From a virus, in the IMG/VR virus record IMGVR_UViG_3300035034_002381, positions 109,507 through 173,506 of that record: a DNA stretch of 64,000 bases; one strand, given 5' to 3'. Shown here one piece after another: positions 6,844 to 63,095 of the stretch. Under the pieces are notes generated by a model. That model saw nothing but the letters and a program-made list of their open reading frames with translations. It searched no databases and was not told the DNA's origin. The first letter of the stretch is position 1; the number at the start of each line of letters is the position of its first letter. The position numbers and the translations under genes are program-made.

Positions 6844-7092
6844 ATGGAATATGTTAAACTATACGAAGATTTTAATCCTTCAGTAAGTAGACAAAGAAAT
6901 AATGAACGCAAAAAGAAATTAGTCGAAAGATATAAAAGGCGTGATGAACAAATCAAAAACACCAAAGATAAAGGAGACGAATCTAAAGCTAACTTGTATA
7001 CTAAACGAAAGGAAGTTGATAGATTAGAAATCCAGAAAATTGATGTTAAAAACGAAATTATCAATATCAAGGAAAAAAGAAGAAAGAAATGA
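6844..7092 (+). CDS. Hypothetical basic coiled-coil protein with CTS-like start
   Basis: The 82-residue protein is very rich in Lys, Arg and Glu and predicted to be one long helix (NERKKKLVERYKRRDEQIK). Its first residues, MEYVKLYEDFNPS, resemble the capsid-targeting start of the following genes, but the Asn-Glu cleavage pair is not intact. AATATATAC at 6832-6840 lies only three bases before the ATG. It overlaps the next gene as ATGA. A basic, DNA-compatible internal head protein is possible but unproven. Confidence 0.55.
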   Translation: MEYVKLYEDFNPSVSRQRNNERKKKLVERYKRRDEQIKNTKDKGDESKANLYTKRKEVDRLEIQKIDVKNEIINIKEKRRKK

Positions 7093-7337
7093 AAAAATTT
7101 GAAGAATTTGTAAACGAAAAAATAGTATTTGGTATTTATGACAAATTTAAAAATACATCGGTAGGTGCAAAAGAATTTGCTTCTGCAATCAGCTCAGATG
7201 ATGATGCAGTAGAGGCGTCAATAGATTTTTTAGATGCTATGGAAATTTGGTTTAAAAAAACCCAAAAAGGAAATTGGGAAGATGTTCAACAAGAACTAGC
7301 AGACAATATTCCTAATGATATAGAATCGTATAGATAA
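7089..7337 (+). CDS. Small protein with capsid-targeting-like N-terminus
   Basis: The first ten residues, MKKFEEFVNE, fit the T4 internal-protein pattern (MKTYQEFIAE), in which the prohead protease gp21 cuts after the glutamate of a (L/I/V)-x-E site. The mature part would be about 72 acidic residues (AISSDDDAVEASIDFLDAM) with a Trp-containing helix. The same ten-residue start is repeated word for word in the next ORF. Function in the head or host is unknown. Confidence 0.65.
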   Translation: MKKFEEFVNEKIVFGIYDKFKNTSVGAKEFASAISSDDDAVEASIDFLDAMEIWFKKTQKGNWEDVQQELADNIPNDIESYR

Positions 7338-7351
7338 AAATAAATAAGAAT

Positions 7352-7527
7352 ATGAAAAAATTTGAAGAATTTGTAAACGAAGGATCAACTTTCGATAGTA
7401 TCGCTGATCATTTGAGAAACAAAAAAATATCAGATGCTGTTTATAAAAAGGAACAATGTCATTATTATTAGACGATAATAGCACTCTAGAATTTACATTT
7501 AATGACAATACTAAAATAAAAAGATAA
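7352..7527 (+). pseudogene. Second MKKFEEFVNE protein, one base out of frame
   Basis: ATG at 7352 gives MKKFEEFVNEGSTFDSIADH and stops at 7469-7471 after 39 codons. The -1 frame continues sensibly through MSLLLDDNSTLEFTFNDNTK to a TAA at 7525-7527, three bases before the next gene. One extra A in the A5 run at 7445-7449 would join the two parts into a 57-residue protein. The start shares its first 30 bases with the gene at 7089, which suggests a duplication of the targeting segment. Confidence 0.55.
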
Positions 7528-7529
7528 TT

Positions 7530-7760
7530 ATGAAATCATTTACAAAATTTGTAGAAACAACAAGATCACTTAACGAAAAGGAAGATCTAGAAAAGGAGTA
7601 TAAAGAAGTCTTTGATGCTCTATTAGATAAATACGAAGTATCTTCACCCGCAGAACTTAGCGACGAAAAGAAAGCTGAATTTTTTGATGAAATTAAAAAA
7701 CATTATACTGCAGGTAAAGGCGCAACCGATAAAGGCGAAGATCTTGTAGGAAAGGAGTAA
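7530..7760 (+). CDS. Small acidic helical protein with CTS-like start
   Basis: The 76-residue protein begins MKSFTKFVETTRSLNE, with a candidate gp21 cut after LNE at residue 16. The remainder is helical and rich in Glu and Lys (KEDLEKEYKEVFDALLDKYE), ending GKGATDKGEDLVGKE. It overlaps the next ATG by one base. No enzyme motif is visible. Confidence 0.6.
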   Translation: MKSFTKFVETTRSLNEKEDLEKEYKEVFDALLDKYEVSSPAELSDEKKAEFFDEIKKHYTAGKGATDKGEDLVGKE

Positions 7761-9034
7761 TGCAATACGTCCACGGATATACACAATTTCTTAATGAACA
7801 ATTGATAATGGAAGGTGGCGCTTTTGGTCACCTTCATCATCCATTTGAAGATCATAGTTTAACATTTAATGATTTATCAGAAATGATAGAATTAACTGTA
7901 ACTGGAGCGTTTAATCAAAACAATTTTGTTCAAGAAAAAACTGATGGTCAAAATCTCATGTTTACATGGAAAAATGGCGAAATACGTGGTGCCCGAAGCA
8001 AGAAACATTTAAGAAATCAAGGTGAAAACTCATTATCCAAACAAGAAATAAGTCAAATGTATTCTGGTCGTGGTGAAATTTTTACAGCATTTACAGAAGC
8101 TATTAATGATTTAGAATCAGCAATTAAAAGTCTTTCTTCTAAACAAAAAGATAGAATTTTTTCTGAAGGAAGTAAATTCATGAGTGTAGAAATTATTACA
8201 CCTATGACACAAAACACGGTACCATACGGTTTATCAATGTTAGTCTTCCATGGTACTAATGAATATGATATCGAGGGCAATGTTTTAAATCAATATAAAA
8301 CTGAGGCTAAAATTCTTGCAGGAATGATTAAGCAAATAAACCAAGACGTACAAAATACGTTCTTTATCCGTGGTCCGCAAAATATTAATTTAGAAGCTTT
8401 ACCCAATACTGCTAAAAAGAAAAATTACTATCAAGGTAAGCTACGTAAATTAGTAAATAAATACAATTTGTCTATGTCAGATTCTATACCAGATTATTTG
8501 TATAAAGTATGGCGAGATAAAACTATTGACATTTTATCTAATAAAAATTATACAGAAGAAATAATCGATGGATTAGCTATGCGCTGGGGTAAAAAACAAA
8601 AATCATATTCAATACCTAATATCAAAAAAGATCTTGGTTCAGAATTTTCTGATTGGGTCAAAAACTTTGAAAAGCGTGGCGGAGAGTATGATAAACTCTG
8701 GAAAGAATATATTGCACCTGTCGAAGGTTTATTTTTAGAACTTGGTGCAGATATTTTAACCAATATTGAAAGTTTCTTAACAGCAGATCAAAGAAATGCG
8801 ACTGAAGAAATGCGTCAAGAAATTGAAAGTACAATAGAAAAGATTAGAAATTCTGATGATGTTACAGCTATTGAAAAGTTGGAACATCAATTACAAAGAA
8901 TTGATACAGCAGGTGGACTAAAAAGATTAGTGCCTTCTGAAGGTATTACATTTTTATATAAAGGAAAACTCTATAAATACACAGGACTATTTGCTGCTAT
9001 TAATCAAATAGGTTCACTCATAAGATATAACTAA
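7760..9034 (+). CDS. Ligase-fold (KxDG) nucleotidyltransferase with CTS
   Basis: The 424-residue protein has the nucleotidyl-lysine motif of ATP/NAD-dependent ligases and capping enzymes, K60-T-D-G63 in QEKTDGQNLMF, followed by GEIRGARSKKH. Later elements that may be motif III (MSVEIITP) and motifs IV-V (EGITFLYKGKLYKYTG near the end) are in the right order. The catalytic residue would be Lys60. The N-terminus, MQYVHGYTQFLNE, is CTS-like, and a second possible cut site LIME-G lies five residues later. It may be a nucleic-acid ligase packaged in the head. Substrate is unknown. A Pol-beta-type transferase follows with a TAATG overlap. Confidence 0.6.
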   Translation: MQYVHGYTQFLNEQLIMEGGAFGHLHHPFEDHSLTFNDLSEMIELTVTGAFNQNNFVQEKTDGQNLMFTWKNGEIRGARSKKHLRNQGENSLSKQEISQMYSGRGEIFTAFTEAINDLESAIKSLSSKQKDRIFSEGSKFMSVEIITPMTQNTVPYGLSMLVFHGTNEYDIEGNVLNQYKTEAKILAGMIKQINQDVQNTFFIRGPQNINLEALPNTAKKKNYYQGKLRKLVNKYNLSMSDSIPDYLYKVWRDKTIDILSNKNYTEEIIDGLAMRWGKKQKSYSIPNIKKDLGSEFSDWVKNFEKRGGEYDKLWKEYIAPVEGLFLELGADILTNIESFLTADQRNATEEMRQEIESTIEKIRNSDDVTAIEKLEHQLQRIDTAGGLKRLVPSEGITFLYKGKLYKYTGLFAAINQIGSLIRYN

Positions 9035-9888
9035 TGACAACTGTTGAAAATACGAAAGTTTTAAAAGAATTTACGCAACCTATTCTTAACTCAGATGTTC
9101 CAGAAGTCTTGGGATTTTTGAATAAATATATTTTGCCTGAAATAGGACTATACGGATTAGATGAAGATGCAACAATAATTGGTTCTGCTGGAAAAAAGTT
9201 ATTAAATCAAACCAGCGGTGATATAGATATTGCAATCTTACGAGGTTCCGTTGCTAAACATTTTGATAGGGATGATGTATTAATGGCTATACATGAAAAA
9301 CTTTCATCAATGGGATATAGAACAAATATTCAGAAAGGATTTAGTCAAGTTAACTTTGCTCTTCCAGCACCAAATGGGTTTGTTCAAGTTGATTTAATGA
9401 TCACTGATAATTTGGATTGGGCAAAATTTGTTTTTCATTCTCCAGATTATACTAAATCTGAATCAAATTATAGGGGTGTCTACCGAGGAATGTTATTAAA
9501 TGCTGTTGCATCTGAAATTGTTAAAAAAACAGTCAAAAAATTAGATGGGGAAATTGAGGAATATGAACAATATGTAATACGTTCTACCTTTGGTTTATTT
9601 AAAGTACGTAAAACTCTTTTAGGAAAAAATGGTAAGCTAATCAAGACACCTAAACTTTTAGATAAATATGAGCAACGCATCTCCAATAATCCTATTGATG
9701 CTGTAAAATTACTTTTTGGTAAAGACGTTAGAATCGATGATATAAGTACATTTGAAAAAATGTTGAATGTAATCAAGAGTCAAAAATTCTTATATCCTGG
9801 AAAGGTTGGAATTATCAAAAATAAATTTATGTGGTATCTTGGAAAAACCAATTTAAATATACCATCAGAAATAACTAATATACCATGA
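9034..9888 (+). CDS. Pol-beta-superfamily nucleotidyltransferase
   Basis: The minimal nucleotidyltransferase signature is clear: IIGSAGKKLL at residues 48-57, the metal-binding pair Asp63/Asp65 in SGDIDIAI, and the third acid Asp120 in FVQVDLMI. This fold includes CCA-adding enzymes, poly(A) polymerases and antibiotic transferases. The 284-residue protein has a helical C-terminal half but no RNA-binding domain I recognise. It has no CTS of its own and is translationally coupled to the ligase-fold protein upstream, so the two may act on the same nucleic-acid end (inference). Confidence 0.7.
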   Translation: MTTVENTKVLKEFTQPILNSDVPEVLGFLNKYILPEIGLYGLDEDATIIGSAGKKLLNQTSGDIDIAILRGSVAKHFDRDDVLMAIHEKLSSMGYRTNIQKGFSQVNFALPAPNGFVQVDLMITDNLDWAKFVFHSPDYTKSESNYRGVYRGMLLNAVASEIVKKTVKKLDGEIEEYEQYVIRSTFGLFKVRKTLLGKNGKLIKTPKLLDKYEQRISNNPIDAVKLLFGKDVRIDDISTFEKMLNVIKSQKFLYPGKVGIIKNKFMWYLGKTNLNIPSEITNIP

Positions 9889-10325
9889 AACATATAAAAT
9901 CATATAAAGAAATTCTTAACGAGTCTATTAATTCTCGAGTACGTTCAAAAATTGTTAAGTTACTCAAGACTCAAGGAATTCAGCATAAAGTAGATTATGA
10001 ATATTCTGCTGGACATTTTTTGGTGCCTACTATAGAAGCAGCTGAAGATATTGCTGATGCGATCGGTGATAAATTTCATGTGACTATTTTAGATAGAAAG
10101 GGTAAAGAAGGAAATACACTTGTAATGATAACTGAAGATGTTAATGAGGCTATCGATTATATGGAAATGGATTATAATTCAAGAAAAGAAATTCTTAAAA
10201 AAACCTTTCCAGATCTTATGGAAGATTCAGTAAAAGATTACGCTTTAAAAACATTTAAAGAATTACCGCCAGAAATGCAAAAAGAAATAGCTGAACAATA
10301 TAACGTAATACTAAAAGATCAATGA
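9885..10325 (+). CDS. CTS-bearing protein of unknown function
   Basis: MKHIKSYKEILNES at the start fits the capsid-targeting pattern with a cut after LNE at residue 14. The 132-residue remainder has an alpha/beta region (KVDYEYSAGHFLVPTIEAAE) followed by helices ending EMQKEIAEQYNVILKDQ. ATGA-type overlaps on both sides place it in the same translation unit as the two nucleotidyltransferases that flank it. Confidence 0.6.
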   Translation: MKHIKSYKEILNESINSRVRSKIVKLLKTQGIQHKVDYEYSAGHFLVPTIEAAEDIADAIGDKFHVTILDRKGKEGNTLVMITEDVNEAIDYMEMDYNSRKEILKKTFPDLMEDSVKDYALKTFKELPPEMQKEIAEQYNVILKDQ

Positions 10326-11065
10326 AAAATTTTGTAAGTTTCTCAAACTTTGTTAATGAATCTCAAAAAGATACACAGGGAAATACACCTGTCAATATTT
10401 TGATTGGTAGATTTGATCCCTTCCATATCGGGCATTATTCTGCTGCGAAAGAATTAGTTGATAAAAATGGCTATCCTGTAGTAATTGTTTCTGTTAGAGG
10501 AAAGGGAGATTTTGGAAAGGGTACAACAGTAAGTAAAGAACTTTTTGATAAAATGGTTTCAAAGCTTGTAAAGACTGTGCCATTTATTAACGGACACATA
10601 GAAATAACTAATGTTTCTTTTGATAAACAATTGTTTGTGAATCTTAGACCTAAGTATGAACCTGTACTTTTAGGAGCAGGCGCAGACAGAATCAAAGGAT
10701 ATACTGCGCAAATGAATTCTTTCAGAGACAAAAAGGGCAATGTAATTAATATGCGCCAAGATTTTGATGTAGTTCAAACTTCACGAAAAGCAAGTGGCAC
10801 TGAGGTCCGTGAAATAATTTCTAAAAAAGATAAAAAGAATTTCTTAAGATTAATGCCTAAAGAACTTCATAATTTTTGGGATGAACTGGTCAAAGAACTT
10901 AATGAGACAAAAAGACCATTATCTTACCATATTGATATATATGATAAGGCCATACAAAAATTGGTAGAAAGTAAGAAAAAAGATAACAAAACTATTTCAA
11001 CAATAGAAAGATTAATAGTGGAGAAGACTAAACTAATCCAAAATTATTCTGATCTTATTAAGTAA
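10322..11065 (+). CDS. NMNAT-like nucleotidyltransferase with CTS
   Basis: Residues 27-40, LIGRFDPFHIGHYS, contain the HxGH motif (HIGH, 35-38) of cytidylyl/adenylyltransferases. SRKASGTEVRE, near residue 155, matches the second phosphate-binding motif (SxTxxR) of NMN adenylyltransferases. The family joins NMN and ATP to NAD, or similar pairs. The first residues, MKNFVSFSNFVNES, are a CTS with a cut after VNE at residue 13, so the mature enzyme would begin just ahead of the catalytic fold. A head-packaged NAD-type enzyme would be unusual. Substrate could also be another nucleotide or phosphorylated sugar. Confidence 0.7.
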   Translation: MKNFVSFSNFVNESQKDTQGNTPVNILIGRFDPFHIGHYSAAKELVDKNGYPVVIVSVRGKGDFGKGTTVSKELFDKMVSKLVKTVPFINGHIEITNVSFDKQLFVNLRPKYEPVLLGAGADRIKGYTAQMNSFRDKKGNVINMRQDFDVVQTSRKASGTEVREIISKKDKKNFLRLMPKELHNFWDELVKELNETKRPLSYHIDIYDKAIQKLVESKKKDNKTISTIERLIVEKTKLIQNYSDLIK

Positions 11066-11070
11066 AAGAC

Positions 11071-12852
11071 ATGCCAGGAATAAAGAAATTAGACAGAATT
11101 TATCAATCAGACGGATTGATCGAAGCTAAAAAACATTTAGAAGGTAACATAACGATTACTGAAAAATTGGATGCTCATAGATTTTCGTTTCAAGTAAATG
11201 AAGATAAAAAAGTTTCGTATTATAAGAAAAACGATAATCGTGAGATTTCTAAAATTGATCGGATTATTACTGATTTATATGAGCGAGCAATAGTTCATAT
11301 CGAATCTTTACCTAAGTCTATTCTTAAAAACATTCCTAAAAATACGAGGTTTGGATTTTCATATTTTCCGAATCAGAAACCTCTTAGAATAAAATATTCA
11401 AAAATTCCAGAAAGCAGATTAGTACTAACTGATATATCATCAAGATCTGATGTAGGTAAAGTCCGCAAGGTTTATGAAGATCAAAAATATTTAGATAATT
11501 GGGCAGATATTCTTAAAGTTTCTAAGCCCCCAATAATTTTTCAGGGTGTACTTGAAGAAAATCAAAGAGATCATATTCTTAATCTTGTGAAGGGAACAGA
11601 TTCTACTGTTGCGTTTTTCTCACAACATATCGAGGGAATATTTGAAAAAACATTTTCTGGCAATAACATTATTGAGGCGCTAGTTTTCAAAAATAAAAAT
11701 GGCTTAACTCAATTAAGGGATCCATCATATAAAATTTTTAATGAAGCTGCTCGACCTACAGTTAGTCGGGATTTTTATGACTTGACAATTATACAAATTC
11801 AAGAATTCATGGAGAATTATGAATTCGGTATTTTTCGAGATAATCTTTCAGAAAATGAACGATATATCAATTTAATATCTGATGCATATAACAAATTTAT
11901 TGATGCCGATTTAATCGATGAAAATTTTAATCCTGAGTTTCTTAAACCTAATATTATTGGCACGCATGGTTGTTTAGGACGCAAATTTATCAGAAATAAC
12001 GAAACTCTTCAAAAAATAAATAGATCAGCTTTAAACGAGGAACTATTTAAAGTATTTTTGATTAGTCTACATCGTAAAAAATCTCCTCATGGATTATTGA
12101 ATCAAAGCATAATCAACAGTTTTAATCAGACTATCGAAAAAATTCAAGAAAGTATAAGTGCAAATGATGGCGAGGGTCTTCTTTCGTATCATGAAACTAT
12201 TAAAATTCTCGAGGGTAATAACGTTAAATTAGACGATCAACAACCTAATTATATCAAGGTAGTTTCTTCATTACAAAAATCATTCAATAAAGAAATTAAA
12301 CATAAAGAAATTGAGCCTTTACCTAAAGCTATATGTATTATTGGCAAATTCGATTTTATTACAAAAAAACATATAGATTTAATCGAAGGATTTTCGGCAG
12401 AAAATGTAATCATTGTCAATCTTTCTAAAAAGAAGTTGAAATTATCTAAAGAACTTTTTCAACTTGAGGATCGTGAGGTTGATAAAATACTTAAATCTTT
12501 ACAAGATGAAAACGATAACATTAAAGAAATTGTTAATTGTTCATATTATTCTCTTGAAAAGATTTTTTACAAAGTTAGAAAAGTGGGATATGAACCGATT
12601 AATTTTTATGTAAATGAAAAATCAATTGCTAATTATTCGATTCAATATAATACGATCAAACATATTTTAGGTGATCGTTTAAAAATCTCAAAGGATTTTG
12701 ATATCTCTGGTTTTTCTATTGATGATAAGCGCACTATTTTCAGATCAATTGAAGATGATGATTATGTAAAATTTAAAGAAGTCTCACCTAAAATTCTTAA
12801 GAACTTCTGGGAGATATATAAATCCAGATATAACATTTGGAAAAAAGAATAA
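11071..12852 (+). CDS. Ligase-like plus degenerate nucleotidyltransferase fusion
   Basis: The 593-residue protein seems to join two modules. The N-terminal part has TEKLDAHRFSF (Lys32, Asp34), a variant of the nucleotidyl-lysine motif KxDG, and later EALVFKNKNGLTQLRDPSYK resembling a motif IV-V region. The C-terminal part from about residue 423 (ICIIGKFDFITKKHIDLIEG) looks like an HxGH nucleotidyltransferase with the histidines lost, and ends like its neighbour (KEVSPKILKNFWE against RLMPKELHNFWD). It was probably built by duplication of the flanking genes. The second module may be inactive. No CTS is present. Confidence 0.5.
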   Translation: MPGIKKLDRIYQSDGLIEAKKHLEGNITITEKLDAHRFSFQVNEDKKVSYYKKNDNREISKIDRIITDLYERAIVHIESLPKSILKNIPKNTRFGFSYFPNQKPLRIKYSKIPESRLVLTDISSRSDVGKVRKVYEDQKYLDNWADILKVSKPPIIFQGVLEENQRDHILNLVKGTDSTVAFFSQHIEGIFEKTFSGNNIIEALVFKNKNGLTQLRDPSYKIFNEAARPTVSRDFYDLTIIQIQEFMENYEFGIFRDNLSENERYINLISDAYNKFIDADLIDENFNPEFLKPNIIGTHGCLGRKFIRNNETLQKINRSALNEELFKVFLISLHRKKSPHGLLNQSIINSFNQTIEKIQESISANDGEGLLSYHETIKILEGNNVKLDDQQPNYIKVVSSLQKSFNKEIKHKEIEPLPKAICIIGKFDFITKKHIDLIEGFSAENVIIVNLSKKKLKLSKELFQLEDREVDKILKSLQDENDNIKEIVNCSYYSLEKIFYKVRKVGYEPINFYVNEKSIANYSIQYNTIKHILGDRLKISKDFDISGFSIDDKRTIFRSIEDDDYVKFKEVSPKILKNFWEIYKSRYNIWKKE

Positions 12853-12858
12853 AAAAAC

Positions 12859-13809
12859 ATGAAAAATATTAGATCATTTCGAGAATTTGAAGCTTTAACC
12901 GAAGCTAAGAAATTTTATACTACAAAGGATATTGTAAAAATGGCAAAAAATGCTGGTGATATTGTCATAGATGCCAAATACGCAATTGAGGATTTGGGAG
13001 TAGCTTATGGAAATAAAGTACCATCAACTGAATTGGATAGAGTTTTGACTCAATATGATTTAGAATTAGAAGATTTAAATGAGGGTCGTAAAAAAATCCA
13101 ACTTAAAAGAAAATATGGAGAACGTTCTGCAGTTACCGCCGGTAAGCGTGCACCTGTCAGAGATAGGATATTAGGAAAAATCGCTGAGTCTGAAGAAGGC
13201 AGAATGTCCAGAAGTTCATTACAAGCATTTATCGCATCCACAAACGAAGATTCAGGTAGAAAAACCACTTTTTCATGGGTCCGAAAAAACTCACGATATT
13301 TTAAAACTGTTAAAGAATCTGGTACAACATACTATAAATTAAGTATGTATGGTAAGCGTGCACTAAAGCGCGGAAATCTTAATGAATCTGAATCTTTAAA
13401 TGAAGGACAGTTTTCTTGGTTGACTCAAGATGGTGGGACTCAAATTGGAAGTGAAAGAAAAAATACTATAACCGTTTATATGTTTGATGACAAAGGAAAT
13501 AAATGGGAAGAAAGAAGTTATGAGGGTTATGGAGAATTTGGTGGAAAAGATTATTTTGATCTTTTAGCTGAAATGAATGGTTATTCTCAAGAAGATGCTA
13601 AAAGTAAAAGTCGTAAAATAGGCGAAGATCTTCGCGAAATAGGTATTGATCTAATGTATGATAAAGGTATTAAACCTAAAAATGGTGGTAAGGTATTATT
13701 TCCAGCTTTAGTTTCAAATAAAAATTACAATTGGAAACGACACGATTTTACAAAACAACCCGAATACGATCCTAACCAAGGTTGGTATACTGAAGATTAC
13801 GGTTGGTAA
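12859..13809 (+). CDS. CTS-bearing polyprotein with several prohead-protease sites
   Basis: Starts MKNIRSFREFEALTEA, with a possible cut after LTE at residue 15. Three more sites of the same kind follow: LNE-G after 75, LNE-S after 176 and LNE-G after 182. Cutting there would release pieces of about 60, 101 and 134 residues. The middle piece is strongly basic (GRKKIQLKRKYGERS) and looks like a winged-helix DNA-binding domain ending KLSMYGKRALKRG. The last piece is beta-rich with acidic and aromatic residues. This organisation suggests a precursor of several internal head proteins. Domain calls are my inference. Confidence 0.6.
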   Translation: MKNIRSFREFEALTEAKKFYTTKDIVKMAKNAGDIVIDAKYAIEDLGVAYGNKVPSTELDRVLTQYDLELEDLNEGRKKIQLKRKYGERSAVTAGKRAPVRDRILGKIAESEEGRMSRSSLQAFIASTNEDSGRKTTFSWVRKNSRYFKTVKESGTTYYKLSMYGKRALKRGNLNESESLNEGQFSWLTQDGGTQIGSERKNTITVYMFDDKGNKWEERSYEGYGEFGGKDYFDLLAEMNGYSQEDAKSKSRKIGEDLREIGIDLMYDKGIKPKNGGKVLFPALVSNKNYNWKRHDFTKQPEYDPNQGWYTEDYGW

Positions 13810-13822
13810 AAAAACAAATATT

Positions 13823-14284
13823 ATGAAAAAATTTAATGAAACTGAAGCAAGTCCAGTAAATACTCCAGGTATGGGAAATGTTGTTCCAGGAGAAGTAGGA
13901 TCTGGTGATGATTTTGGTGATGAAGAAGAAGAAGAAAAAGTTCGCCGAAAAAGACTTAAAAATCTTAGAACATTTGAAGAATTTGAAACAGCAGGTATCA
14001 ACGAGGGTAGAACATATGAGGGACGGCCAATAACTCCTTCAATTTATACTACTGCTGATATTAGAAAACCTATCACTAAGAGATCACAGCTTAAAGATGG
14101 CATGAATGTTATGATATTAGACCATGGATTAAACCAATGGATAGCTTATATGAGATATATCGGATTTGAACAATTTATGCATAAATTTAATTCTGCTAGC
14201 CAATATGAAGACATGGTTTTCGATTATTCGACAGAAGAATTAGAAGATGCTATTAAGAATGGCGAGATTCTTATGATGAAATAA
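13823..14284 (+). CDS. Head-targeted protein with an internal CTS
   Basis: The 153-residue protein begins with a Pro/Gly-rich and then very acidic segment (DDFGDEEEEEK). It then has RLKNLRTFEEFETAGINEG at residues 44-62, which is a CTS displaced inward with a cut after INE at 61. The C-terminal part (from GRTYEGRPITPS) is a compact 90-residue domain with ITKRSQLKDGMNVMILDHG, resembling small beta-barrel folds. It is the last gene of the CTS cluster and is followed by a terminator-like hairpin. Confidence 0.55.
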   Translation: MKKFNETEASPVNTPGMGNVVPGEVGSGDDFGDEEEEEKVRRKRLKNLRTFEEFETAGINEGRTYEGRPITPSIYTTADIRKPITKRSQLKDGMNVMILDHGLNQWIAYMRYIGFEQFMHKFNSASQYEDMVFDYSTEELEDAIKNGEILMMK

Positions 14285-57255: not shown

Positions 57256-57444
57256 ATGAAAAACCTTAAAACATTCGATGAGTTATTGAATGAGTCTAAA
57301 GAGTATCAAGAAGACGAGTCTATTGAGTTTTTAAAAAAAAAACTGAAAAATAAAATAAAGTTTTCGCCTGAAGAAATGAAACATATAGATAATCTAATGT
57401 TGATGTATAAAAAGGGTTCGAAATCTTCTAAAAATAAAATATAG
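57256..57444 (+). CDS. Small CTS-bearing protein behind the tube gene
   Basis: 62 residues beginning MKNLKTFDELLNES, a CTS with a cut after LNE at 13. The mature part is Lys-rich (IEFLKKKLKNKIKFS, YKKGSKSSKNKI), as expected for a DNA-binding internal head protein. It is the only CTS gene directly inside the tail module. A terminator follows. Confidence 0.6.
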   Translation: MKNLKTFDELLNESKEYQEDESIEFLKKKLKNKIKFSPEEMKHIDNLMLMYKKGSKSSKNKI

Positions 57445-61700: not shown

Positions 61701-62782
61701 CTTTAAGTGATTTTGGAAAAATATTTAGTGGTGGTGTTATTAGCGGTCTATCTGGTGGTGTTACAGGTGATGATATTATTACTGGTATCGAACAAATGGG
61801 AGTCATTTCTAATAATCTTGCAGAAATGGGAAAAATGGTGGGTTCTTGGAACAGATTTTCTTTCACTGAAATGGAAGTCAAAGATGGAAGATTAGTTCCT
61901 AAAAAAGTTCATCCCCTAGGAAGTGATGCGATTGAAGTTGCTCGACAAAATATTCTTAAAATCATAGGAATTTTACCTGAAGCCTTGGGCAAATATGATT
62001 CCATGGTCGAAGGATTAGGAATTGATCGAGAAGACATTGGGGGAATCATTTCTGAAATGTCAACTATTCAAAATACATTAGGATTTTTAGCTAAAGATAT
62101 TCAGGATAATTGGTCAGGTTCTGAAATGGTAGATTCTGCAAATAATTATAAACTTTGGTTATACGAAGTTGCTGATCCAATTATTGGACAAATGGCAGAT
62201 AGATACAAACATCTAGGTCAGAGTATTACATTATTCGATAAGCATTTCAGTAATTTTAATAAGCCAGTAAAATCTAAAGAATATCATACATTCACTGATA
62301 AGTTAATTCAGTTATCTCAGCATGCAAAAGACTTTAAACTTTTTGCAGATTCCTTTGATAGAATGGCTGATTCAATGGGTAAGTTTTCGAAAAACTTTTC
62401 CGTTATGAATGCAGATGGTCTGGCAGCATTTTCAATATGGACAGATAGTTTATTACAAGCAATAGAAGTAGGAAAAGAAGGTGACGCATTTGGTAATTTC
62501 TTAGATTCTGCAGACACAGCAGTAAATTCGGCATTTAAATTTGGGAACAAAAAACTCGGTTTTTCTGATGATAATGAAGTAAGCCAAGGTGATAAAAAAT
62601 CTGTAATAGATCAAACATTAGCCCAAAATGATAGCCAACAAGCTAGAGAAATTAGAAAACTTAACTCGTCTATAATTTCCCTACATAATGAAATTTCAAC
62701 ATTAAAGGCAGTAATGTCAGGTACACTGGATGTTAATATAGAAAGTGTAAGTTCAGTAGCAAAATTTAAAATAGATGAATAG
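58763..62782 (+). CDS. Tape measure protein with two sets of internal repeats
   Basis: The 1339-residue protein sets tail length and probably helps DNA entry. After an N-terminal coiled coil, residues 160-610 hold seven hydrophobic units of about 55-90 residues, each like 'L..LG.SIA.FG..M' (LKDLGMAIALFGITM, LSHLGYSIAVFGVTM, LIKLGWSIAAFSASL, ALIALGASLTAFSIGL). Residues 710-1075 hold four units of about 110 residues with NIGxVLxALxKPLSDFGKIF. T4's tape measure gp29 has 590 residues, so this tail may be longer. The first block could form membrane-spanning hairpins on ejection. Confidence 0.85.
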   Translation: MATPSEKMLNALLGSVQRIEKIISQKTSDSKKAETSSVDPSIFSSGFGGMAKSLEKIESESRKTNDLLRELIEINSMRNKDILADISDGASKINKLVQSLPKFFSAIKNISKLPENSVDRLKNVLMLTAFIDPETGDPLVDQNQLDKAAKLMENIHSLAGGIIKYGLAMSAFLIISPLAIAGAAAFGLSLRLLDLAMGKHIDTERISESMGGLKDLGMAIALFGITMVGFSYVLPQIAKGALGFITVVAGLGVALWTLSKVLQWGSGGFRDTSPLKTLSHLGYSIAVFGVTMALMSYAAPQIFAGALVFTTVVATLGLTVFLLYKVLGNNKLFGGKDSAVKSSGPLSTLIKLGWSIAAFSASLVLVGLFVKPFALGALAVTLAISAMGISLRLLGNASARRGTQNLQRLSISLGIFTLVMAGWVHLVQPKLTWEGLGMLGAAIGGMGLIATVLGLPAVDKSAKKGAANLILLGGALATFSIGLAIYAQLAAEKLSWDSLAMLGATIGTMALVGTILGIPAVFPLVLSGSIALIALGASLTAFSIGLGVYANTVAGKMTMTDLAILAGTVTAMGLIGSVVGIISPLVIAGSAALVVAGGALISISTGLSIFAKSNFTKENGENLNYALRSMMAGFLGYESLDDVGLSSLAKVPVQAGLVATMSASMLLASSALLPITKSLKIFKEANWQEGDSKILKEVIGSIIGAFTENLKDVDWVDLWFGLNSLNNVGNVLTGLAEGVGAFANLSFIEQEFDEKAGKLIPKRVVRLSSPDITNAGISIGNVITAMVEPVAKFGNEITSGIGSFIGIPLAINSLETLGSGLVNLATGVQDWSNMTVTSWGVQKDPKTGLNKLVPTGKTKLTDPQLDSAKSNIGKVLLALTKPLSDFGKIFSSDSVLDFFGGLIDKTSVEKGIASMASLGTGLANMALGVSYWGNMKYAPMILGKNKETGLNELMPGKPIPLDIENAGKNIGSVLTALAKPLSDFGKIFSGGVISGLSGGVTGDDIITGIEQMGVISNNLAEMGKMVGSWNRFSFTEMEVKDGRLVPKKVHPLGSDAIEVARQNILKIIGILPEALGKYDSMVEGLGIDREDIGGIISEMSTIQNTLGFLAKDIQDNWSGSEMVDSANNYKLWLYEVADPIIGQMADRYKHLGQSITLFDKHFSNFNKPVKSKEYHTFTDKLIQLSQHAKDFKLFADSFDRMADSMGKFSKNFSVMNADGLAAFSIWTDSLLQAIEVGKEGDAFGNFLDSADTAVNSAFKFGNKKLGFSDDNEVSQGDKKSVIDQTLAQNDSQQAREIRKLNSSIISLHNEISTLKAVMSGTLDVNIESVSSVAKFKIDE

Positions 62783-63095
62783 AATTAAAACGTTTAAACA
62801 ATTTCTTTTTGAGAAAAATACATCAGAATATGAACCGCCGAAACATTTGGTTTCTCCAGCATTAGATCCAGAAACACAAGAACCTGATGATAAGATGTAT
62901 GATTATATGCGTGGTGAACTTGACAAGACTACAAAATACTTTGAACCTAGTATAAGCTCGATCGATGAAAAAATCAAAGGTGATTCTATTGAATGTGATA
63001 ATTGTGGATGGACATGGGAGATAAAAGAAGGTGGAAGTGATTTGTTTGTTTGTCATGAATGTGGACACGATAATTTAAATAAAGTTAACATTTAG
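62775..63095 (+). CDS. CTS-bearing zinc-ribbon protein
   Basis: 106 residues. MNRIKTFKQFLFEKN is a CTS-like start with a possible cut after LFE at 13. The C-terminal ribbon has four Cys: CDNCGWTWEIKEGG and CHECGHDN. It overlaps the tape measure gene by eight bases. The zinc ribbon may bind nucleic acid. Role unknown. Confidence 0.6.
   Translation: MNRIKTFKQFLFEKNTSEYEPPKHLVSPALDPETQEPDDKMYDYMRGELDKTTKYFEPSISSIDEKIKGDSIECDNCGWTWEIKEGGSDLFVCHECGHDNLNKVNI

Follow-up and report, generated by a model that had tools for sequence, protein, structure and literature searches.

The closest described system is that of phage T4, whose internal proteins IPI, IPII and IPIII and the Alt protein carry an N-terminal propeptide of 10–19 residues with aromatic residues at positions 4 and 7 and a hydrophobic-x-Glu site cut by an S77 prohead protease, ahead of otherwise unrelated bodies (Mullaney and Black 1996; PMC9026906; PMC12373910). 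Residues 4 and 7 of the 10-residue T4 capsid-targeting sequence (CTS) act mainly in targeting and residues 8 and 10 in processing, the gp21 protease cleaves after (L/I)-x-E, and a review has already proposed that, by means of the CTS, T4-like phages can load a variety of proteins (PMC9026906). Polyvalent proteins combine many unrelated domains (e.g. ART and a Zeta/PNK-like kinase) in injected multi-domain proteins (Iyer et al. 2017, PMC5512222), and the large anti-restriction protein DarB of P1 is sent into the head by an N-terminal signal (PMC9024508). Five adjacent genes of Agrobacterium phage Atu_ph07 (i.e. gp53-57) start with M[KR]W[EN][DQ]L[TN]E and gp53 contains a Zeta/PNK-like kinase; mass spectrometry assigned 29 virion proteins to the enclosing cluster of CDS 31-76, a count for the whole cluster (PMC6102473).

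The DNA analysed here (the window, 64,000 nucleotides) corresponds to positions 109507-173506 of a 173.5-kb virus record, whose major capsid protein (MCP) resembles those of Bacteroidota phages, Lak and PTm1 among them, so that its host is probably a member of this phylum. A preliminary description had listed nine ORFs with capsid-targeting-like N-termini (i.e. those at 7089, 7352, 7530, 7760, 9885, 10322, 12859, 57256 and 62775), and all nine were present as described. Alignment of these N-termini produced one motif, [FY]xx[FIL](L/V/I)xE, with the window tags following MKNxKxFxEFxNE and including short forms such as MKKFEEFVNE. Very probably this motif is a CTS of the T4 internal-protein type and marks an expanded system in which, by analogy with T4, the tagged proteins would be packaged, cleaved by an S77 protease and injected.

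The distribution of the motif was examined with a profile of 14 tags (i.e. those of the window and four from near the capsid gene) searched in all reading frames, following a check proposed in the preliminary description. Twenty-two matches of at least 12 bits were found in the parts of the record examined; all were on the + strand, 21 coincided with a start codon and eight were absent from the training set. Neither the reversed profile (n = 1) nor column-shuffled profiles (n = 5) gave any match at this threshold. A whole-record search returned 25 matches, giving a tag set of at least 22–25 in this genome, which is a lower bound because the genome-wide count was made on stretches of the record. 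When each tag was left out in turn and scored against 470 ORF starts, 20 of 24 outscored every other start, and seven of the nine listed ORFs, as well as the internal tag of 13823, were unmatched; 7530 (9.9 bits) and 7760 (9.3 bits) were weak, relatives of the latter being likewise tagged. When IMG/VR was scanned with a degenerate DNA version of the tag, at least 119 stretches matched, as compared to none for a codon-permuted control. A chance origin of the tags was excluded by the reversed and shuffled profiles, the codon-permuted scan and the leave-one-out scores. The tagged set is therefore larger than the nine ORFs first seen, and includes a second block outside the window, shortly downstream of the MCP gene, where four to five tagged genes follow a homing-endonuclease-like gene.

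The resemblance to T4 extended to individual residues. MKKFEEFVNE aligns without gaps to MKTYQEFIAE, a sequence read from T4 ipII and ipIII, and the window tags place aromatic residues at the equivalents of CTS positions 4 and 7 and hydrophobic-x-Glu at positions 8-10. The sites anticipated from the first reading (VNE, LNE, INE and LTE), and also LFE, follow the second aromatic residue in most tags; a few deviate (i.e. 46797, 25806 and 7530). The same profile found one match in the T4 genome, the packaged internal protein IPII, and no match in T7, PTm1 or Mel-JY01, while Lak-A2 gave a single borderline 12-codon match (E 0.13). As the distant PTm1 and Mel-JY01 both bear S77 proteases, these results indicate that possession of such a protease does not imply the tag motif. 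A gp21-type protease was looked for and is encoded in this genome outside the window, as an S77 protease-scaffold fusion (G000:C1:17120-19195; Pfam E 7e-14; phrog_207 head maturation protease, 3e-40); a similar fusion is annotated in Tenacibaculum phage PTm1, and S77 was encoded in 11/11 tag-bearing contigs of >150 kb. The scaffold-protease contains 13 [LIV][NT]E sites in 666 residues as compared to 62 in the 26,838 residues of 101 untagged proteins, and the N-terminal region of the MCP reads SLNE|AFTAP, with LNE at residues 41-43, the expected place. The register, the sole T4 match to IPII, the S77 protease and the MCP and scaffold sites all support the reading of these N-termini as T4-type CTSs. 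The present system differs from that of T4 in having >20 tagged genes as compared to three internal proteins and Alt, in a cargo that includes multi-domain enzymes and probable polyproteins, in the usual site (i.e. (L/V/I)NE) and in the fusion of protease and scaffold into one protein.

The main cluster of the window (6844-14284) adjoins a DNA polymerase gene and not head genes, a location that counts against the CTS reading. All of its genes lie on the + strand. Most, as previously described, are tagged, but 9034 and 11071 are not, and the first gene (6844..7092; 82 aa, MEYVKLYEDFNPS) starts with what may at most be a decayed tag lacking the Glu for cleavage, which falls below the 12-bit threshold and can be compared with the tagged MQYVKLYEDFLNE of a relative (locus L207). 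The next gene (7089..7337) encodes an 82-aa protein with the tag MKKFEEFVNE|KIVF, identical in length and register to that of T4 and scoring 23.7 bits in leave-one-out with no equal among other starts. It is followed by a 39-aa mini-ORF (7352..7471; MKKFEEFVNE|GSTF, 21.6 bits) and a 76-aa weak member (7530..7760; MKSFTKFVETTRSLNE|KED). Within 7352-7528, another frame reads LLLDDNSTLEFTFNDNTKIKR and then a stop after the mini-ORF, which may possibly be a frameshifted small gene; the reading was unchanged in a near-identical contig (L004). The 424-aa product of 7760..9034 is an RNA/DNA-ligase-like nucleotidyltransferase with the tag MQYVHGYTQFLNE|QLIME|GGAFGHL and a predicted mature start at G19. 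Tags are also carried by a 146-aa protein (9885..10325; MKHIKSYKEILNE|SINS, 20.6 bits), a 247-aa NMNAT/cytidylyltransferase-like enzyme (10322..11065; MKNFVSFSNFVNE|SQKD, 17.0 bits) and a 316-aa probable polyprotein (12859..13809; MKNIRSFREFEALTE|AKKF...EDLNE|GRKK...ESLNE|GQFSW). In the 153-aa product of 13823..14284 the tag is internal, as first noted, and occupies residues 45-61 (LKNLRTFEEFETAGINE|GRTY) after an MCP-N-arm-like segment (NTPGMGNVVPG..GSGDDF). This segment (13823-13920; compare L002:11374 and L252, minus strand near 9342) closely resembles the mature MCP N-arm (NTPGMGNVTPAG..GSGDKF), recurs in a relative and is possibly a capsid-lattice-binding peptide. Two further tagged genes of the window lie outside this cluster on the + strand and encode a 62-aa protein (57256..57444; MKNLKTFDELLNE|SKEY, 26.0 bits), whose gene immediately follows one of 186 aa at the tail-sheath/tube position, and a 106-aa protein (62775..63095; MNRIKTFKQFLFE|KNTS, 19.4 bits).

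The two untagged neighbours argue against uniform packaging of the block. The 284-aa protein of 9034..9888 had neither a Pfam match nor a useful PDB match and is probably a pol-beta-type nucleotidyltransferase, as judged by the motif GSAGKKLLNQTSGDIDIA alone. The 593-aa protein of 11071..12852 contains, by eye, ligase-like (EKLDA) and NMNAT-like (GKFDFITKKH) stretches and was without a match in family searches. A scan of viral contigs for homologues of both detected none besides the near-identical contig.

Promoter sequences were also examined. A T4-type late promoter (TATAAATA) was not consistently present before tagged genes. An octamer, GATATATA, was found 20–66 nt upstream of the protease-scaffold gene, genes of the tail/baseplate region and tagged genes, with copies at 12813, 57540 and 58735 of the window and at L002:9092, L109:16263, L110:1767 and L111:6547. 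Its nine copies in the window all fall on the coding strand, and the octamer was not over-represented overall, 16 of 100 shuffles reaching nine; as a candidate late promoter it is suggestive only.

The cargo had been described as a large set of enzymes. Within the window this held for the ligase-like 7760 and the NMNAT-like 10322, while no function could be assigned to the other tagged proteins. Clearer examples of enzymes and anti-defence-like cargo come from relatives and from other parts of the genome. The ligase-like protein contains EKTDG (motif I), EGITF (motif IV) and KLYKYTG (motif V), and E59, K60, D62, G63, E394, G395 and K406 were invariant in 16 such sequences. In an AlphaFold2 model, residues 1-24 were unordered (pLDDT <50) and the body was confident, as would be expected of a removable leader. 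The top 14 Foldseek matches to the model were all RNA/DNA ligases, albeit weak (best E 0.035). In cellular genomes, the ligase was found in only seven short MAG contigs, which are probably viral. At two loci (L077:9995-11779 and L078) an insertion resembling an intein or intron (..CLSPGTIINL...VHN-TDGQQ) breaks the ligase gene inside motif I (EK/TDG). The NMNAT-like enzyme matched PF01467 (E 1.8e-5) and phrog_3041 (E 2.4e-8), and a PDB search with it returned nothing useful. PADLOC detected nothing convincing.

Elsewhere in the genome, a PGA_cap metallophosphatase (79112; E 7e-39) was found, and a 2H phosphoesterase that scores above the cut-off for Acb1 lies at 81.9-82.3 kb, within a probable multi-site polyprotein. 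PF23474 (Acb1) scores were 27.3 (cut-off 27) and 29.6 bits, HCT and HMT were invariant so that the 2H HxT/HxT tetrad was present, and a PDB profile search gave 7t26 (Acb1) as the single, weak match (E 0.034). Among fold matches, a phage phosphodiesterase ranked ahead of Acb1 (7t27; E 1.5e-4). Acb1-like matches occurred in 11 of the 51 records searched, nine over the family cut-off, and every N-terminus read was tagged. Tad3-like proteins were found in three records, with a tag on both of those read, and ART-PolyVal, Zeta/PNK, GNAT, ATP-grasp and RNA-ligase families were also represented among tagged proteins. Some tagged proteins are probably anti-immune or RNA-repair enzymes, and the Acb1-like and Tad3-like bodies point indirectly to an action on host defence.

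The loci examined from relatives contained 347 tagged ORFs, with a maximum of 13 per locus, and two ligase-related lake phages gave 13 and 21 profile matches, essentially all at ORF starts. Alignment of 108 tagged proteins revealed conservation only over MKxxKxFEEFxNE, and 173 long tagged proteins fell into 72 families. The bodies are unrelated and vary between phages, as with the T4 internal proteins. These properties bear on an alternative in which the motif binds scaffold or capsid and so recruits the tagged proteins as assembly helpers that are cleaved and expelled and not injected. The location of several tagged genes near the MCP or tail/baseplate genes, the mimicry of the MCP N-arm by 13823 and the many small tagged proteins without assignable function would all fit such helpers. 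We consider this alternative improbable since the bodies are unrelated and variable, as in T4 internal proteins, and include catalytic domains without an assembly role (i.e. ligase-like, NMNAT-like, 2H/Acb1-like, Tad3-like, ART, PNK and GNAT).

Sequences resembling the cleavage site also occur within the tagged proteins. In this genome, the tagged proteins have 15 copies of [LIV][NT]E[AGS] past residue 25 (4,066 aa) and the remaining proteins nine (26,838 aa; odds 11, p 2e-8); a control with Asp for Glu was not enriched and an order-swapped control was not significant (p 0.06). The same site was 1.8-fold enriched in the tagged proteins of relatives (p 2e-5), with flat controls. Many tagged proteins are probably polyproteins, a feature absent from the preliminary description. 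In three families (ligase, kinase and the FSW module) the predicted cut coincided with an exact domain boundary. In marine T4-like phages the ligase forms the C-terminal part of proteins that reach 1,600 aa, and 44 distinct sequences have the junction (L/I/V/M)xE|GGAYGHL. A further 12 sequences have Met for Glu (M|GGAYGHL), most with an AAGGAG-like sequence ~9 nt upstream, and the same N-terminus could therefore be made by internal initiation. All 20 contexts of the kinase module, whose leaders differ, place its start after Glu-Gly (E|G). The C-terminal module of 12859 (ESLNE|GQFSW) occurs behind its own tag in L201, within large proteins in L160 and L161 and as a standalone untagged ORF starting MGFFSW in L163. 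Kinase, NMNAT and ligase are joined in single proteins of marine relatives, none so large being present in the window. At L161:4977-8204, a locus syntenic with the window cluster, a 1,075-aa protein comprises approximately ten small modules with ESVVTE|A- or ESVINE|A-type sites between them.

The position of these internal sites also counts against the view that the shared N-terminus is a recombination seam, i.e. a conserved 5' gene end for cassette swaps with no role in the protein. Cassette exchange is frequent, and the tag-only mini-ORFs at 7352, 7416 and 82854 are as expected of such a seam; those at G000:C1:7416 (23 codons, MKTFKEFINESEYMVVNGKKTPR) and 82854 (10 codons, MKTFKEFLNV) are possibly remnants that have lost their cargo. 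A seam is nevertheless very unlikely, as codons vary at several tag residues (e.g. GAA 23/GAG 12 and AAC 12/AAT 18), tag length varies whilst register is kept, the motif coincides with that of T4 IPII and the Glu site is repeated internally at domain starts. Targeting elsewhere (i.e. to the membrane, the nucleoid or a host protease), of which amphipathic N-terminal helices are generally capable, has an equally slight probability given that the tags are without a hydrophobic core or signal peptide, that the Glu site is common to the MCP and scaffold of the same phage and that the profile finds a T4 virion protein.

Under the favoured reading, i.e. a CTS of the T4 type, the paired aromatic residues of the tag would draw tagged proteins into the scaffold core of the prohead late in infection, and the scaffold-fused S77 protease would cut after the Glu of (L/V/I)xE and, in longer proteins, at additional sites of this type that separate the modules. 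The enzymes and small proteins so matured would be retained in the head and enter the next host with the DNA, with immediate effects on host immunity, RNA damage or host takeover. Since the tag is present on >20 unrelated proteins per genome, a ready-made toolkit is probably injected with the DNA. A more specific proposal, which we rate as only a little better than even, is that the prohead protease of this T4-like clade has become a polyprotein processor: strings of unrelated modules behind one tag, each with an (L/V/I)(N/T)E site ahead of it, would be cut in the head and injected, prior to any phage gene expression, against second-messenger immunity (CBASS and Thoeris) and against RNA damage and NAD loss. 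In a sister lineage, an internal ribosome-binding site and start codon would have taken the place of the ligase cut site and yield the same protein.

Such a system would share with polyvalent proteins the many unrelated domains but would differ in that modules are divided by prohead-protease sites, and not by a metallopeptidase of their own, and in having a T4-type CTS as N-terminus; no polyvalent-type metallopeptidase (MPTase) was found in the window or in the Pfam-scanned proteins of relatives. The mechanism is also unlike that of DarB, whose signal lies within the first 30 residues in a phage apparently without a separate scaffold. The Acb1-like proteins of this genome and its relatives share the 2H fold, the HxT/HxT tetrad and a Pfam match with the anti-CBASS nuclease Acb1, but bear the predicted head-packaging tag; the paper on Acb1 makes no mention of virion packaging (PMC9117128). 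The gp53-57 proteins of Atu_ph07 offer an independent hint, with a different tag consensus. The bodies of these five proteins (L156) share an RGM stretch that by eye could be ADP-ribosyltransferase-like; Pfam gave no ART match in the two scanned.

No publication on such a CTS expansion was found in the literature searched. The CTS mechanism itself is known, and what appears to be new, as far as this literature shows, is its scale, its occurrence in a distant clade, a cargo of enzymes and anti-immune proteins, and the presence of multi-site polyproteins. If correct, the tag would be a simple label by which injected phage proteins could be searched for, and would convert hundreds of functionally unassigned proteins of uncultivated phages into a defined class of pre-made, early-acting cargo whose mature N-termini are predictable to the residue. 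Anti-CBASS- and anti-Thoeris-type proteins would then be delivered from the virion prior to transcription, and the head of a tailed phage would act as a polyprotein-processing compartment.
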